From Prevotella sp. (GTDB lineage: Bacteria; Bacteroidota; Bacteroidia; Bacteroidales; Bacteroidaceae), in the NCBI GenBank assembly GCA_017556145.1, contig JAFZCU010000213.1, forward strand, positions 1 to 47,920: a stretch of 47,920 nucleotides of DNA. The letters are read 5' to 3'. The notes under the pieces are model-generated. The model worked only from the letters and a program-made list of their open reading frames with translations. It did no database searches and was not told where the DNA came from. This document shows, one piece after another, positions 17,516 through 33,556 of this stretch (positions are counted from its first letter, which is position 1; each line of letters begins with the position of its first letter). A program made the position numbers and the translations under genes.

Positions 17516-18109
<594 letters not shown>

Positions 18110-28221: not shown

Positions 28222-30348
28222 ATGATTATGAAAAAGAATTTATTTTATGCAGTCGTCGCTATCGGAATGTTAGCCAGCTGCGTTGACAATGAGTTCGTGG
28301 GCGAAGTCACCCCGAATCCTGGAACTGAAGGCACTAATGCTATTGTGTTCAACTCTGGTGCAAAGACAGTAACCCGTTCTGGAGAGATTTATGGAGCAGC
28401 TGCTGCCGATTTGTTGAATAAGAATTTTGTGGTAGAAGGTATTAAGACTATCGTTGGTGAAAACGACGCTAAGAATATCGTAGAGGTCTTTGATAACTAC
28501 AATGTAAACTGGGTGAATAATTCTGCGAATACGACAGCCTCAAACACCGCTAACTGGGAGTATGCTGGCCAGCCCACTAACTCACACACTTTGGTTAGTG
28601 AGCAGTCTATTAAGTACTGGGATTTCGCTGCCTCGCAGTATGACTTCTGGGCCTATTCGCTTGGCAATGCCGCAGCTAATAGTGTAACGATTACCAGACT
28701 TGACCATGATGCAACTCTTAATGGTACTGCATACACCATTAAAGGCGCTTTGGCGAATTTAGCAAATGTGTATATCTCCGACCTTGTTACTTGTTATCCC
28801 GTTGGCACATCGTTTAAAGATAATGATAATAATGATGTAACAGTTCCTATCATGGGCGATCAGGTGAACCTCACCTTCCGCTCTTTGGTAACAAAGGTGC
28901 GTGTGGGACTCTATGAAACCATTCCAGGCTATTCTGTGAAAAATGTGTTGTTCTATACCGAAGCTGATGATGCTAATCCTGGTGCTAACGCTGTTCTATA
29001 TGCAACAGGTAATGTTTTGCCAACAGTGGGTACAGATAATACTGCTGAATATGTCGTCCAGTTCTCACATATTGGATCTACCAACATTCTTAGTAGTGAT
29101 TACAATAAAGCACATGTATTCCTTAACTCTTCAGATAAAACAAGTACGGTCGAGTTCGGTCAGTTGAACTATGGCAATAAACATGCTTATGAGAAGACAG
29201 CTACCGATAATATTTGGCTTCATATTAATTCTGCTCAGCCAACTTGGGCTAAAGAGACTAATGCCACCAAGGCAGGTGATTACAGTATAGTGCTGCCTAA
29301 TGAGACTGGTGCTGTGTTGACATTGAAGGTAGATTACACGCTTGAGTCTACCGATGGCTCTGGTGAGGAGATTACTGTTCACGGTGCTACTGCTCTTCTG
29401 CCCTCACAGTATACGCAGTGGAAGCCCAACTACGCTTATACTTATCTCTTTAAGATTAGCGACAACACAAATGGTCTGACCAATCCTGCTGTTACTTCAA
29501 AGGAAGGTCTCTATCCCATCACCCTTGATGCTATAGTTATTGCTCCAGAAGATGGTCAACAGGAAACAATCACCACAGTTGCCACCCCAAGCATCACAAC
29601 TTATTCGCTCACGTCAGACGTAACTCAGAACAACGAGTACACTGCGAGTGATGAAATTTATGTTACTGCCACTACTGATGGTTCGTTGATAGAAATGACT
29701 GGAAAAGCAAATCTCTATCAAATTACTATCAATGAAAACAATAGTGATGTTGCCTATGCTGCTACTGAGGCAGAGGTTTTGGATGCCCTTACCACCTATT
29801 CAGATTTAGCAAATGATGGAACATATACAGGACGCAATGGCATAAAGTTGTCTCCCGTAGATACTGAATCTTGGAATTTAACCGAAACATCGATTCCTCT
29901 CATTGATGGTAACACAGTTGGTGTTAATGCAGGTGAAGTGGCTAAGATTATTAAGAATAAGTTGACTGCTGGTAACTACTATGCTTTTGTGTATGAAGTA
30001 ACGGAACCAGGAACTCCAACAGAAAAGAATGAATATACAATTGTTTCTGTTTCATCGAATGATGATGTAACTAATTATTTTGTTTCTGATGATGGCGGTC
30101 AGAGTTTCAGAGCAGCAACAGCCAATGAACCGGCGAATACTATTTACTATCAGAAAGAAGTTTCGTATTCTGTGACAAATGGTGTTTATGGCATTAAGGT
30201 CATTAAGATTAAAGCTGCTGACCAGAATAGCAACGACCCAGGTAATGGTAATAACAATGGTAATAACGACCCGGGTAATGGCGGTGGTAATGACCCAGGT
30301 AATGGCAGTGGTAATGACCCAGGTAATGGCGGTGCTAGAACAAAGTAA
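28222..30348 (+). CDS. Fimbrillin family lipoprotein 3 with an NDPGNG-repeat tail
   Basis: The product is 708 residues from ATG 28222, or from the ATG at 28228. The lipobox is MLASC (C20). IVFNSG and R52 in TVTRSGE match the cleavage pattern. The fimbrillin blocks run NTANWEYAG, SIKYWDF, QYDFWAYS, LTFRSLVTKVRVGLYETIPGYSVKNVLFYTEAD, VLPNETG and TQWKPNYAYTYLFKISD. The end strand YGIKVIKIK is followed by an extra tail of about 35 residues made of Asn/Asp/Pro/Gly repeats from 24-bp DNA units. If the C-terminal strand is used in polymerisation, this tail could alter it or cap the polymer. Composition is AT-rich, as in fimbrillin 2. Confidence 0.88.
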   Translation: MIMKKNLFYAVVAIGMLASCVDNEFVGEVTPNPGTEGTNAIVFNSGAKTVTRSGEIYGAAAADLLNKNFVVEGIKTIVGENDAKNIVEVFDNYNVNWVNNSANTTASNTANWEYAGQPTNSHTLVSEQSIKYWDFAASQYDFWAYSLGNAAANSVTITRLDHDATLNGTAYTIKGALANLANVYISDLVTCYPVGTSFKDNDNNDVTVPIMGDQVNLTFRSLVTKVRVGLYETIPGYSVKNVLFYTEADDANPGANAVLYATGNVLPTVGTDNTAEYVVQFSHIGSTNILSSDYNKAHVFLNSSDKTSTVEFGQLNYGNKHAYEKTATDNIWLHINSAQPTWAKETNATKAGDYSIVLPNETGAVLTLKVDYTLESTDGSGEEITVHGATALLPSQYTQWKPNYAYTYLFKISDNTNGLTNPAVTSKEGLYPITLDAIVIAPEDGQQETITTVATPSITTYSLTSDVTQNNEYTASDEIYVTATTDGSLIEMTGKANLYQITINENNSDVAYAATEAEVLDALTTYSDLANDGTYTGRNGIKLSPVDTESWNLTETSIPLIDGNTVGVNAGEVAKIIKNKLTAGNYYAFVYEVTEPGTPTEKNEYTIVSVSSNDDVTNYFVSDDGGQSFRAATANEPANTIYYQKEVSYSVTNGVYGIKVIKIKAADQNSNDPGNGNNNGNNDPGNGGGNDPGNGSGNDPGNGGARTK
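30232..30336 (+). repeat. 24-bp tandem repeat encoding the NDPGNGGG tail
   Basis: Units begin AATGACCCAGGTAATGGC and are followed by two variable codons (GGTGGT, AGTGGT, GGTGCT), with a shorter, looser copy at the start. It encodes the Gly/Asn-rich extension of fimbrillin 3. Confidence 0.8.
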
Positions 30349-30363
30349 TTAATCCTCTTTTTC

Positions 30364-30391
30364 AGCCGGGCGGGGGTGGCCCCGCCTGGCT
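30364..30391 (+). terminator. GC-rich hairpin after fimbrillin 3
   Basis: AGCCGGGCGGGG pairs with CCCCGCCTGGCT through 12 base pairs (one G-U) and a four-base GTGG loop. No U-run follows; the downstream bases are AT-rich (ATAAATAAAAACA). It may be an mRNA 3'-end stabiliser or partial terminator separating the shaft genes from the rest of the locus. Confidence 0.5.
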
Positions 30392-30394
30392 ATA

Positions 30395-30436
30395 AATAAA
30401 AACAAGAAATAAAAACAATACAAGAAATAAAAACAT
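30395..30436 (+). repeat. A-rich direct repeats
   Basis: AATAAAAACA occurs at 30395, 30408 and 30426, and CAAGAAATAAAAACA at 30403 and 30421. It lies in the 402-bp gene-free stretch 30349-30750 between the hairpin and the 11-bp array. I see no gene or promoter box in this stretch. Confidence 0.6.
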
Positions 30437-30458
30437 TATAGATACAGAGAATAATGTT

Positions 30459-30744
30459 CGCGCGAGGGCGCATGGAGCTTCGACCTACTGACGCACTCCT
30501 TACGGAGATGTATCGGAGAAGATTCTGAGGAAACTCGGAGAAGGCTCGGACGATATACGGAGGATGTTTGAAGGATGGACGAAGGATGTTCGAAAGGAGT
30601 CCGAGACAAGAAGCAAGTTAGAAGCAAGCAAGAAGCAAACATCAAGCAGAGGTGAAGCAGAGGTATAGCAGAGGTGAAGCAGAGATGTAGCAGACTATAA
30701 GGAAGCTTTAAGGAAGCTATTAGAAAGAGTCAAACAGATAAGAA
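30459..30744 (+). repeat. Phased array of about 26 degenerate 11-bp units
   Basis: Dividing the sequence every 11 bp from 30459 keeps units in register to 30744. Examples are CGGAGAAGATT (30514), CGGAGAAGGCT (30536), CGGAGGATGTT (30558), CGAAGGATGTT (30580), CGAAAGGAGTC (30591), GCAAGTTAGAA (30613), GCAAGCAAGAA (30624), GCAGAGGTGAA (30646 and 30668), GCAGAGGTATA (30657), GCAGAGATGTA (30679), GGAAGCTTTAA (30701) and GGAAGCTATTA (30712). Neighbouring units are most alike, so the unit drifts gradually along the array. Unit starts are CG then GC/GG, followed by purines. The period is not a multiple of three and stops interrupt it, so it is non-coding on the plus strand. It ends 6 nt before the ATG at 30751. 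Confidence 0.85.
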
Positions 30745-30750
30745 GACGGG

Positions 30751-32334
30751 ATGAAATATCCGATAGGCATACAGAGTTTTGAGACGCTTCGCAGAGACGG
30801 CTACGTCTATGTGGACAAGACCGACTTGGTTTACAAGTTGGCCCAGGGACACATATATTTCCTGGCTCGGCCACGCCGCTTCGGTAAGAGTCTGCTTATC
30901 AGTACGCTAAAGGCCTATTTCGAGGGTCGGAAGGATTTGTTCCAGGGTCTTATCATAGGCTTTTTGGAAACCAAATGGACGCAATACCCTGTGCTGACAT
31001 TTGACTTCAACGGGCTGTCCCGTCAGGAAAAGAATCCGCTTCGCAATTATCTGCTCAGTCAGATTGTTGCTGCTGAGGAAAAATACAACATCATTCAAGA
31101 AAACACCGATGACCTTAATCTGCGTTTCCGTCGGCTTATTCCTGCCATACATGAGGTGACAGGTCAGAGGGTGGTGGTTCTCATTGATGAGTATGACAAA
31201 CCGTTGTTGGACCTTCTGGAAACAGGCAATCCAGAAGACGAACAGCTGCTTAACGACAATCGCGAGTTGATGAAAGCCTTCTTCTCTATCTTTAAAGCTA
31301 CAGATGAGCATTTACGCTTCGTGATGTTGACAGGTATCACCAAGTTTTCGCAAGTTTCAATGTTCAGCGGCTTCAATCAGCCAGATGATATCTCATTTGA
31401 AGATGACTATGAGGCCTTGTGCGGTATTACTCAGATAGAACTTGAGGCAGTGTTCCATGAATCTATATGGGAATTATCAGCAACGATGCATGTGTCGCAG
31501 GAAGAGGCCTTGGCATTATTGAAGCAGAATTACGATGGCTACCATTTCAGCAAGCGAATGACCGATGTGTATAATCCCTTCAGCGTGATCAATGCCTTGA
31601 AGAAAAGGAGTTTGGATGACTATTGGTTTGCGTCAGGCACGCCATCTTTTCTGGTGCGGCTACTCGGTAACACGCCAGAAGACGTGATGGCCTACACAAA
31701 TGGGGACTATACACGAGATGAGTTCGTCAACTACAAGGCTGACAGCGCTAGGCCATTGCCCATGATCTTCCAGGCTGGCTATCTCACCATCAAGAGTTAT
31801 GACCCTATATTCAAGACCTACACGTTGGATTTCCCCAACAAAGAGGTAAGACAGGGTTTGATAACACTGCTGGCCAACGACTATCTTCAGCAAGATGGGC
31901 TAATGCAATCAGTAGTTATAAAGATAGTCAAGTCCTTGCAGGTCGGTGATCTTGATCAAACCCGGAAGCTGTTTACGGGGTTCCTGGCCGGGACGCCATA
32001 CTCGATGCGGCCGAAGAAGGACCAGAAGGACAGGGAGTTGTATTTCCATTACACGTTCTATCTGATCATGCGGCTCATCTCTTGCTACACCGTCTATACG
32101 GAGAAGCAGCTCAGCGAGGGTCGTGCCGACTGCATCGTGGAAACCAACGACTATGTCTATCTCTTCGAGTTCAAACTCGACGGTACGGCAGCAGAGGCAT
32201 TGCAGCAGATTGAGGATCGGGGCTATTCGAAGGCCTACGAGGCCGACGCGCGCGCGTTATATAAGATAGGTGCCAGTTTTAGCAGTAAGACAGGCACCAT
32301 CGAAGAGTGGGAAGTCAGAGAAGGGAAAAGGTAA
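30751..32334 (+). CDS. AAA-ATPase-like / PD-(D/E)XK nuclease family protein (DUF1703 type)
   Basis: The 527-residue protein has an N-terminal AAA-ATPase_like domain: YPIGIQSFETLRRDGYVYVDKT, then an atypical P-loop ARPRRFGKSLL at 39-49, and Walker B VVLIDEYDKPLLD near 140-152. The C-terminal PD-(D/E)XK-like fold has GRADCIVE (Asp near 456) and LFEFKLDG (Glu and Lys near 472-474). The family is abundant in Bacteroidetes; its function is not established. There are no membrane segments. It lies on the same strand between fimbrillin genes, after a 402-bp gap with hairpin and repeat arrays, so it may be an insertion into the locus rather than a fimbrial gene. Its 3' end runs into a heptamer tract. 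Confidence 0.9.
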   Translation: MKYPIGIQSFETLRRDGYVYVDKTDLVYKLAQGHIYFLARPRRFGKSLLISTLKAYFEGRKDLFQGLIIGFLETKWTQYPVLTFDFNGLSRQEKNPLRNYLLSQIVAAEEKYNIIQENTDDLNLRFRRLIPAIHEVTGQRVVVLIDEYDKPLLDLLETGNPEDEQLLNDNRELMKAFFSIFKATDEHLRFVMLTGITKFSQVSMFSGFNQPDDISFEDDYEALCGITQIELEAVFHESIWELSATMHVSQEEALALLKQNYDGYHFSKRMTDVYNPFSVINALKKRSLDDYWFASGTPSFLVRLLGNTPEDVMAYTNGDYTRDEFVNYKADSARPLPMIFQAGYLTIKSYDPIFKTYTLDFPNKEVRQGLITLLANDYLQQDGLMQSVVIKIVKSLQVGDLDQTRKLFTGFLAGTPYSMRPKKDQKDRELYFHYTFYLIMRLISCYTVYTEKQLSEGRADCIVETNDYVYLFEFKLDGTAAEALQQIEDRGYSKAYEADARALYKIGASFSSKTGTIEEWEVREGKR

Positions 32335-32385
32335 AAGTGAATAGTGAAAAGTGAAGAGTGAAAAGTGAAGAGTGAATAGTAGAAG
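32324..32385 (+). repeat. Heptamer repeat joining the AAA gene and fimbrillin-like 4
   Basis: The units are GTGAATA, GTGAAAA, GTGAAGA, GTGAAAA, GTGAAGA, GTGAATA after a GGGAAAAGGTAAAA lead-in. The TAA stop of the AAA gene (32332-32334) and the GTG start of the next gene (32372) both lie inside the tract. Confidence 0.9.
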
Positions 32386-33514
32386 GTTCAGACATATCGC
32401 ATTGTGGGCACTGGCGGCTGTGATGACGGTCGGCTGCGGTCCGGCATCGGAGGAGGACACAGAGTTGCCCGTACCCCCACAGCCGGGAAGCGAGACCCCC
32501 ATCGCCTTCTCCGGCAACTTGCCGGAAGAGGGTTCTGGCAGCGTCACCCGTACTGAGCCAAGAGGACTGGAAACCGTCTTGCCAGAAGGCAACAAGAAGT
32601 TCCAGGTCTGGGCTTTTAAGACTGTCGGAAACTCTACTTCTGTCCAGATTGTCATCGACGGCTATATCGTCAAATGGATTGCTAACAGTGCCAATACCAC
32701 GACCTCTAATTCCAGCAATTGGGAATATGTGAACCAGGGTACGAACCAGTCCATCAAGTACTGGGACTACTCAGCCCTGTCCTACCGTTTCTTCGGTGTG
32801 GCAGGTGCCAGTTCAACCAATACCATTACTGGGGCTTATAAGCCCAGTGATGACAATCCTCAATGGTACGAGCTGGTTTATGAGAGCGATGCCACTAATC
32901 CCGCCGCCACGCCTTACTACAGCCACCTGTGGGTCGGTGGTAGCGATCAATACGGCCAGCCGGTACGGTTGGAGTTTATCCAGCCTCTGTCGAAAGTACG
33001 CTTCAAGTTCATCTTCGAGGATCCCACTCAAGCCAGCACTACTGAGCTGACTGCAAAGAGTTTCCGTCCTACCAACGGCACATCCATCAAGATGAAGGGA
33101 GATGTGTCGGTCAGCTATCCTCTGACGGGGGATGCCTCTGAGACGTTTGCCGCCACTGCTGAGGCTGAAGGTATGACAGATTTCACGCTGGACTATTATG
33201 AGTCGGTGGGATATGATAATAGCAATCCCTCGAAAGTCATAGAACCCTATTTGGGTGCTGATGCCACCAAGACTCGTCAGGAGTACAGCGTGCTCCCAGT
33301 CTCCGGTCAGGGCACCTACACACTCACGGTCAGTGTGAACGGAGAGCCAAAGACTACCGTTGTGCCTGCCGAATTTATGGAGTGGAAGCCCGGCTACCAG
33401 TACACGTATATCTTTAAGGTACACGTGGATAAGGGTGTTAGCATCAGTTCTGTGCAGGCGGCTTTTACGACGTGGTCGTTTTATGCTACCGACCACACGG
33501 TGTATAATTGGTGA
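32372..33514 (+). CDS. Fimbrillin-like lipoprotein 4
   Basis: The product is 380 residues starting at GTG 32372, which lies within the heptamer repeat. No downstream ATG would keep the signal peptide MNSRRFRHIALWALAAVMTVGC (C22 lipobox). R60 in GSVTRTEPRG fits the Arg-cleavage position. Fimbrillin blocks are present: SSNWEYV, SIKYWDYSALSYRFFGVAG and EWKPGYQYTYIFKV. It is about half the length of fimbrillins 1-3 and lacks their C-terminal extension, so it may be a minor or basal subunit. Its TGA stop starts the next heptamer tract. Composition is GC-richer than fimbrillins 2 and 3. Confidence 0.82.
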   Translation: MNSRRFRHIALWALAAVMTVGCGPASEEDTELPVPPQPGSETPIAFSGNLPEEGSGSVTRTEPRGLETVLPEGNKKFQVWAFKTVGNSTSVQIVIDGYIVKWIANSANTTTSNSSNWEYVNQGTNQSIKYWDYSALSYRFFGVAGASSTNTITGAYKPSDDNPQWYELVYESDATNPAATPYYSHLWVGGSDQYGQPVRLEFIQPLSKVRFKFIFEDPTQASTTELTAKSFRPTNGTSIKMKGDVSVSYPLTGDASETFAATAEAEGMTDFTLDYYESVGYDNSNPSKVIEPYLGADATKTRQEYSVLPVSGQGTYTLTVSVNGEPKTTVVPAEFMEWKPGYQYTYIFKVHVDKGVSISSVQAAFTTWSFYATDHTVYNW

Positions 33515-33556
33515 AGAGTGAAAAGTGAATAGTGAATAGTGAAAAGTGAAGAGGTG
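33511..33556 (+). repeat. Heptamer repeat between fimbrillin-like 4 and 5
   Basis: The units are GTGAAGA, GTGAAAA, GTGAATA, GTGAATA, GTGAAAA, GTGAAGA and then GGTGATA. It starts at the TGA stop of the previous gene and continues to about 12 nt before the ATG of the next. Confidence 0.9.

Follow-up and report, generated by a model that had tools for sequence, protein, structure and literature searches.

A degenerate 11-bp tandem array before an AAA-ATPase_like/PDDEXK_9 gene of Prevotella sp., and arrays at multiples of 11 bp in the genus

In the window (the whole stretch of Prevotella sp. DNA analysed here, 47,920 nucleotides) a run of 11-bp units lies immediately upstream of a gene with ATPase and nuclease domains. 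The position of the array raises the question of whether it belongs to the gene, as a binding site, a curved segment or an RNA leader, or whether it is a repeat that grew in the space between two genes. An initial annotation, made from the letters and the open reading frames, had left these readings side by side and had suggested that array and gene could be one unit.

Organization of the array and its surroundings

The identity at lag 11 over 30459-30744 is 0.60, compared with 0.282 ± 0.027 in 5000 dinucleotide-preserving shuffles, none of which reached the observed value; the periodicity described in the initial annotation is thus real. Within 30503-30744 the lag-11 identity rises to 0.645 (again 0/5000 shuffles), and the identities at lag 22 are 0.55 and 0.60 for the longer and the shorter interval, respectively. 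The four leading units taken alone have a lag-11 identity of 0.36, and their period is not significant (Table 1), so that of the approximately 26 units proposed for 30459-30744, about 22, starting at 30503, stand and the left end does not. A best-segment scan places the core of the array at 30503-30727, with 20.5 copies of an 11-bp period and an identity of 0.68 between neighbours; TRF picks up only short pieces of it. Cuts made every 11 bp hold their phase, free of slips as had been claimed, as far as 30744, which leaves the expected 6 nt before the ATG at 30751. The units are contiguous and the repeats are not split by unique spacers; a CRISPR array, which had already been discounted, is therefore rejected. 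No plus-strand ORF of at least 60 aa lies within the array, in keeping with its description as non-coding on that strand, and a 69-aa ORF on the minus strand (30436-30645) overlaps it.

Table 1. Features of the region between the fimbrillin-like gene and the AAA-ATPase_like/PDDEXK_9 gene.
Feature	Position	Strand	Basis
Fimbrillin-like gene; no Pfam hit, name from cluster similarity	28222..30348	+	ORF list, Pfam
G+C-rich strong hairpin after the fimbrillin-like gene, no T run behind	30364..30391	+	Hairpin analysis
A-rich 18-bp repeat, 2.5 copies	30394..30438		Segment scan
Four leading units of the initial annotation	30459..30502		Alone not significantly periodic (564/5000 shuffles)
Degenerate 11-bp tandem array, ~22 units, purine-rich (plus strand), without array-wide consensus	30503..30744		Lag identity, segment scan, unit decay
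AAA-ATPase_like + PDDEXK_9 (DUF1703-type) gene, 527 aa	30751..32334	+	ORF list, Pfam

The gap between the two genes measures 402 bp and contains, in this order, the strong hairpin, the A-rich repeat, a short stretch whose period is not significant and, last, the array of 11-bp units. There is a second, weaker hairpin, in which 30432-30439 pairs with 30451-30458. The two genes lie on the same strand and no TAnnTTTG box is found in the 400 bp upstream, which suggests that they are co-transcribed.

The product of the downstream gene passes the Pfam cut-offs for both AAA-ATPase_like and PDDEXK_9 (224.4 and 79.1 bits against cut-offs of 26.1 and 25.5), bearing out the ATPase and nuclease motifs noted earlier. 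Its description as a gene without known function is fair as regards function; the family itself, which shares this architecture, has already been described as DUF1703 (PMC6387759). According to that article, the family expands to many copies in some genomes; the phrase ‘tandem repeat’ is absent from its text. In contrast to such multi-copy expansions, the window's assembly (82.7% complete) has one match, lodged in a fimbrillin-like cluster. Searches with the AAA protein gave no match in NCBIfam, no significant match to solved structures and, as regards membership of a defence system, one weak Cas4-like match only (E 0.0022).

A DUF3575 gene, several fimbrillin-like genes (one of them Mfa_like_1) and a 4370-aa ORF share one orientation over 21742-47901; this is probably a fimbrial cluster, which the AAA/PDDEXK_9 gene interrupts. 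Fimbrillin-like genes also adjoin close relatives of this gene at five distinct loci besides the window, among the 95 searched (L003/L032, L004, L033, L035 and L037; L008 weakly). The two gaps that follow the AAA gene (32318-32380 and 33511-33553) are occupied by arrays of a 7-bp, AGTGAAA-type unit, and pieces of the first array match many genomes of the genus. Elsewhere in the window, a SufE-family ORF on the minus strand (17516-18109; Pfam SufE, E 4.3e-44, in two stretches) contains a tract, in frame and about 60 residues long, that derives from a 7-bp repeat of 25.7 copies (17743-17922).

Similarity between units and mode of growth

The identity between units falls with their separation: for units 1 to 11 apart it is 0.66, 0.61, 0.53, 0.46, 0.45, 0.43, 0.43, 0.43, 0.37, 0.32 and 0.26, while off-phase comparisons give 0.25-0.29 throughout. 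At 12-16 units apart it is 0.24-0.15 and at 17 units 0.27; the value of 0.36 at 18-20 units is computed there over at most 33 bases. Background similarity is thus reached about 11 units apart, and no consensus holding along the whole array was found. This decay backs the earlier statements that nearest neighbours are most alike and that the array grew by local duplication and drift: the units resemble each other because they were copied from their neighbours, not because one site was held constant. Nor is the unit palindromic; this candidate was rejected for the whole array at both periods (P 0.56 for 11 bp, P 0.29 for 22 bp), and four segments taken separately all gave P values of at least 0.05, the lowest being 0.063. 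A-tract-curved DNA is likewise rejected, since helically phased A/T runs are absent and every run of A or of T in 30503-30750 is shorter than four bases; the curved-DNA proposal of this type falls with it.

The decay with distance, together with the lack of a single conserved site, of A/T tracts and of a palindromic unit, fits local duplication and drift. The array is probably a degenerate 11-bp minisatellite that arose in this way and belongs with a wider habit of the genus, arrays at multiples of 11 bp (11n), described below. Whole 11-bp units would have been duplicated locally again and again, by slippage or unequal exchange, within the gap between the fimbrillin-like and AAA/PDDEXK_9 genes, and would then have drifted by substitution; slippage is the origin that we infer. 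If the array acts at all, it would do so as a long, purine-rich leader or spacer that influences translation of the downstream gene. Like the bacterial intergenic minisatellites and VNTRs as a general class, the array consists of non-coding, spacerless, head-to-tail units, in register beyond chance, with a similarity that peaks at neighbours and fades with distance; it differs from them in being strongly degenerate (neighbour identity about 0.66) and in having its register fixed at 11 bp.

Some observations weigh against the drift account. There is no slip of register over 22 units, though neighbours differ at about one third of their positions, and selection on spacing could keep the register constant despite this divergence. 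The stability of the predicted RNA fold and a weak excess of arrays upstream of members of the gene family, both described below, weigh in the same direction.

Relationship between the array and the downstream gene

Among 106 oriented loci with homologous genes, 95 were scanned over 500 bp upstream of the gene, the other 11 being set aside as duplicates. Tandem arrays scoring at least 18 (the best score in shuffled sequence from 60 loci was 12) were found at 16 of the 95. Their periods are 22 bp in seven cases, 7 bp in five, and 11, 15, 21 and 42 bp in one each; the only 11-bp array is that of the window. None of the duplicates has an array (their best scores are 8-10). For 11 of the 95 loci, 100 consecutive bases of the gene recur at another locus (L003 and L032 are one gene), and stricter removal of duplicates leaves 84 loci with the same 16 arrays. 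Also outside the scan are L001 (the same gene as L002), L054 and L097 (no upstream sequence) and L030, which has no 11-bp array, just 8-bp arrays scoring 16. No 11-bp array precedes the gene in its closest relatives, where the gap is mostly shorter and in some cases contains 7-bp repeats instead.

A DNA query comprising the array and the gene matches 124 of 398 genomes of the genus. Outside the window's genome, all of the matches listed start no earlier than query position 386, which lies 17 bp ahead of the ATG. The window's own genome has no second copy of the array, its nine other matches being no longer than 37 bases with E values of 0.09 or worse, and the plasmid and phage collections contain no relative of the array at E 0.1. 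With the 11-bp array missing from 94 of the 95 homologous loci, and arrays with 11n-bp periods occurring elsewhere without the gene, the situation is the one that the initial annotation had named as speaking against its own reading. The gene and the array are not one unit.

The presence of arrays of any such kind upstream of family members, compared with other genes, is at most weakly associated with the family. In the 500 bp upstream, 9 of 90 family members (window included) have an array with an 11n-bp or 21-bp period, against 27 of 633 for other genes (P 0.033), and arrays reaching to within 20 bp of the start precede 9 of 79 family members, eight of the nine having a period of 7, and 16 of 427 others (P 0.009); both tests are post hoc, with controls drawn from the genus and homologs from several families.

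A TAnnTTTG box lies upstream of many homologs, often near -33; the 400 bp upstream of the gene contain none in the window or at L003-L005, L008, L033-L037, L039 and L041. A search for a leader motif common to the close relatives yielded AATGTNCGCGC and GAGGCCGGGCCTC at few loci only, and the GAGGCCGGGCCTC-type pattern before the start occurs in 2 of 398 genus genomes. At L004, L037, L044 and L195 a perfect GAGGCCGGGCCTC palindrome stands before a copy of the AAA gene or before an ATGAARTAYCC start.

Alternative explanations

The array might encode a regulatory leader RNA, structured or purine-rich, by which translation of the AAA/PDDEXK_9 gene is controlled. It stops just short of the ATG, 72% of the bases in 30503-30750 are purines, and the purine fraction upstream of the gene, 0.69, is the highest of the homologous loci compared (mean 0.51, s.d. 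0.05). The RNA of 30459-30765 is predicted to fold more stably than dinucleotide shuffles (z -3.27, 1/100), and that of 30503-30744 more stably than its units when randomly reordered (0/200). Against this, the stability does not exceed that of permutations that keep the period (P 0.135), no homologous array was found on which covariation could be assessed, and Rfam has no match in the window at gathering scores or in 30340-30800 at E values up to 1. We consider such a leader unlikely. Less likely again are helically phased 11-bp sites that a regulator, or the AAA protein itself, would coat on one face of the DNA and thereby control the downstream gene. The period is close to a helical turn, the register is maintained immediately before the gene, and family members have arrays upstream slightly more often than other genes, but units more than about 10 apart are at background similarity and the other homologs lack the 11-bp array. 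ParR of plasmid R1 coats 11-bp iterons and controls the downstream gene. The R1-type parC iterons share with the window array unspaced 11-bp direct repeats beside a gene that they may control; unlike them, the array has no conserved unit along its length, and no ParM- or ParR-like Pfam match was found among 14 of the proteins encoded in the window. A uniform binding array, the simple form of the phased protein-binding proposal, is not supported, there being no consensus along the whole array.

Insertion of a dispersed element before the gene, a MITE with a minisatellite like BrickBuilt, is very improbable. Such an element is known from a Bacteroidales species: the description of BrickBuilt in Porphyromonas gingivalis (PMC4596501) gives a 23-nt unit, a leader and a tail with inverted ends, and many copies. 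The window array is a spacerless minisatellite in a Bacteroidales genome too, but its unit is 11 bp and it is a single copy, with no second one in its own genome, in the matches listed from 398 genus genomes or in the plasmid and phage collections. The degenerate minisatellite remains the preferred reading: the array is probably private, located in an intercistronic leader and of little function. Taken alone it is a private spacer repeat, and it cautions against inferring function from position.

Arrays with periods at multiples of 11 bp in the genus

Because the non-coding arrays around the homologs peak at 7 and 22 bp, stretches not selected for arrays were sampled from the genus: 52 stretches (L129-L140, L153-L172 and L197-L216; several per genome in places) with 1,003,389 bases, 144,007 of them non-coding by a simple ORF mask. 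Non-coding arrays with periods of 10-50 bp fall at multiples of 11 in 38 of 73 cases (period 11, n = 2; 22, n = 20; 33, n = 4; 44, n = 12), while an even spread over periods (4 in 41) would give about 7 of 73. When each period is counted once per stretch the figure is 28/58, and inside ORFs it is 8/24. A recount with TRF on 47 of the 52 stretches, skipping five with masked bases, puts 36 of 84 non-coding arrays at multiples of 11, with 22 as the top period (26 arrays). Block-shuffled sequence yields no non-coding arrays. Such arrays number 6 and 0 in two samples of 200 kb each, drawn from other orders of the same class, and are absent from 100 kb of E. coli.

These counts suggest, tentatively, that the Prevotella-like genus builds intergenic arrays quantised by 11 bp (11, 22, 33, 44), often of palindromic 22-bp units, with sequences that differ by locus; what is kept would be the length, near one or two turns of negatively supercoiled DNA, and not the sequence. 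The window array is non-coding and its period belongs to the 11n series, but it is not palindromic; the most plausible reading is that it represents this habit in a private, purine-rich form, and it would be the one-turn form of the 11-bp-quantised arrays. If the pattern is true, it points to a duplication machinery that slips or cuts by whole helical turns, or to a DNA-coating protein that tolerates different sequences. The 11-bp sequence period of bacterial genomes is commonly read as the supercoiled helical repeat (PMC4132750); equating the preference seen here with a single turn of negatively supercoiled DNA is guesswork, suggested by the number alone. Should the 11n pattern be valid genome-wide, it would bear on how duplications arise or persist relative to the DNA helix, and it merits follow-up more than the window array does. 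No published description of such a preference was recognised in the part of the literature covered.

The unit is palindromic (P<0.05) in 12 of the 20 arrays of 22 bp, and in 22 of 37 arrays in a set with periods of 18-24 bp that partly overlaps the former and is not independent of it. Compensatory changes in the palindromic 22-bp arrays number 15, against 10.6 ± 2.4 expected (P 0.046), too weak an excess for a claim of RNA structure. Examples of 22-bp arrays of tandem palindromes are found at L138:17603-17687, L162:18112-18195 and L165:3-88.
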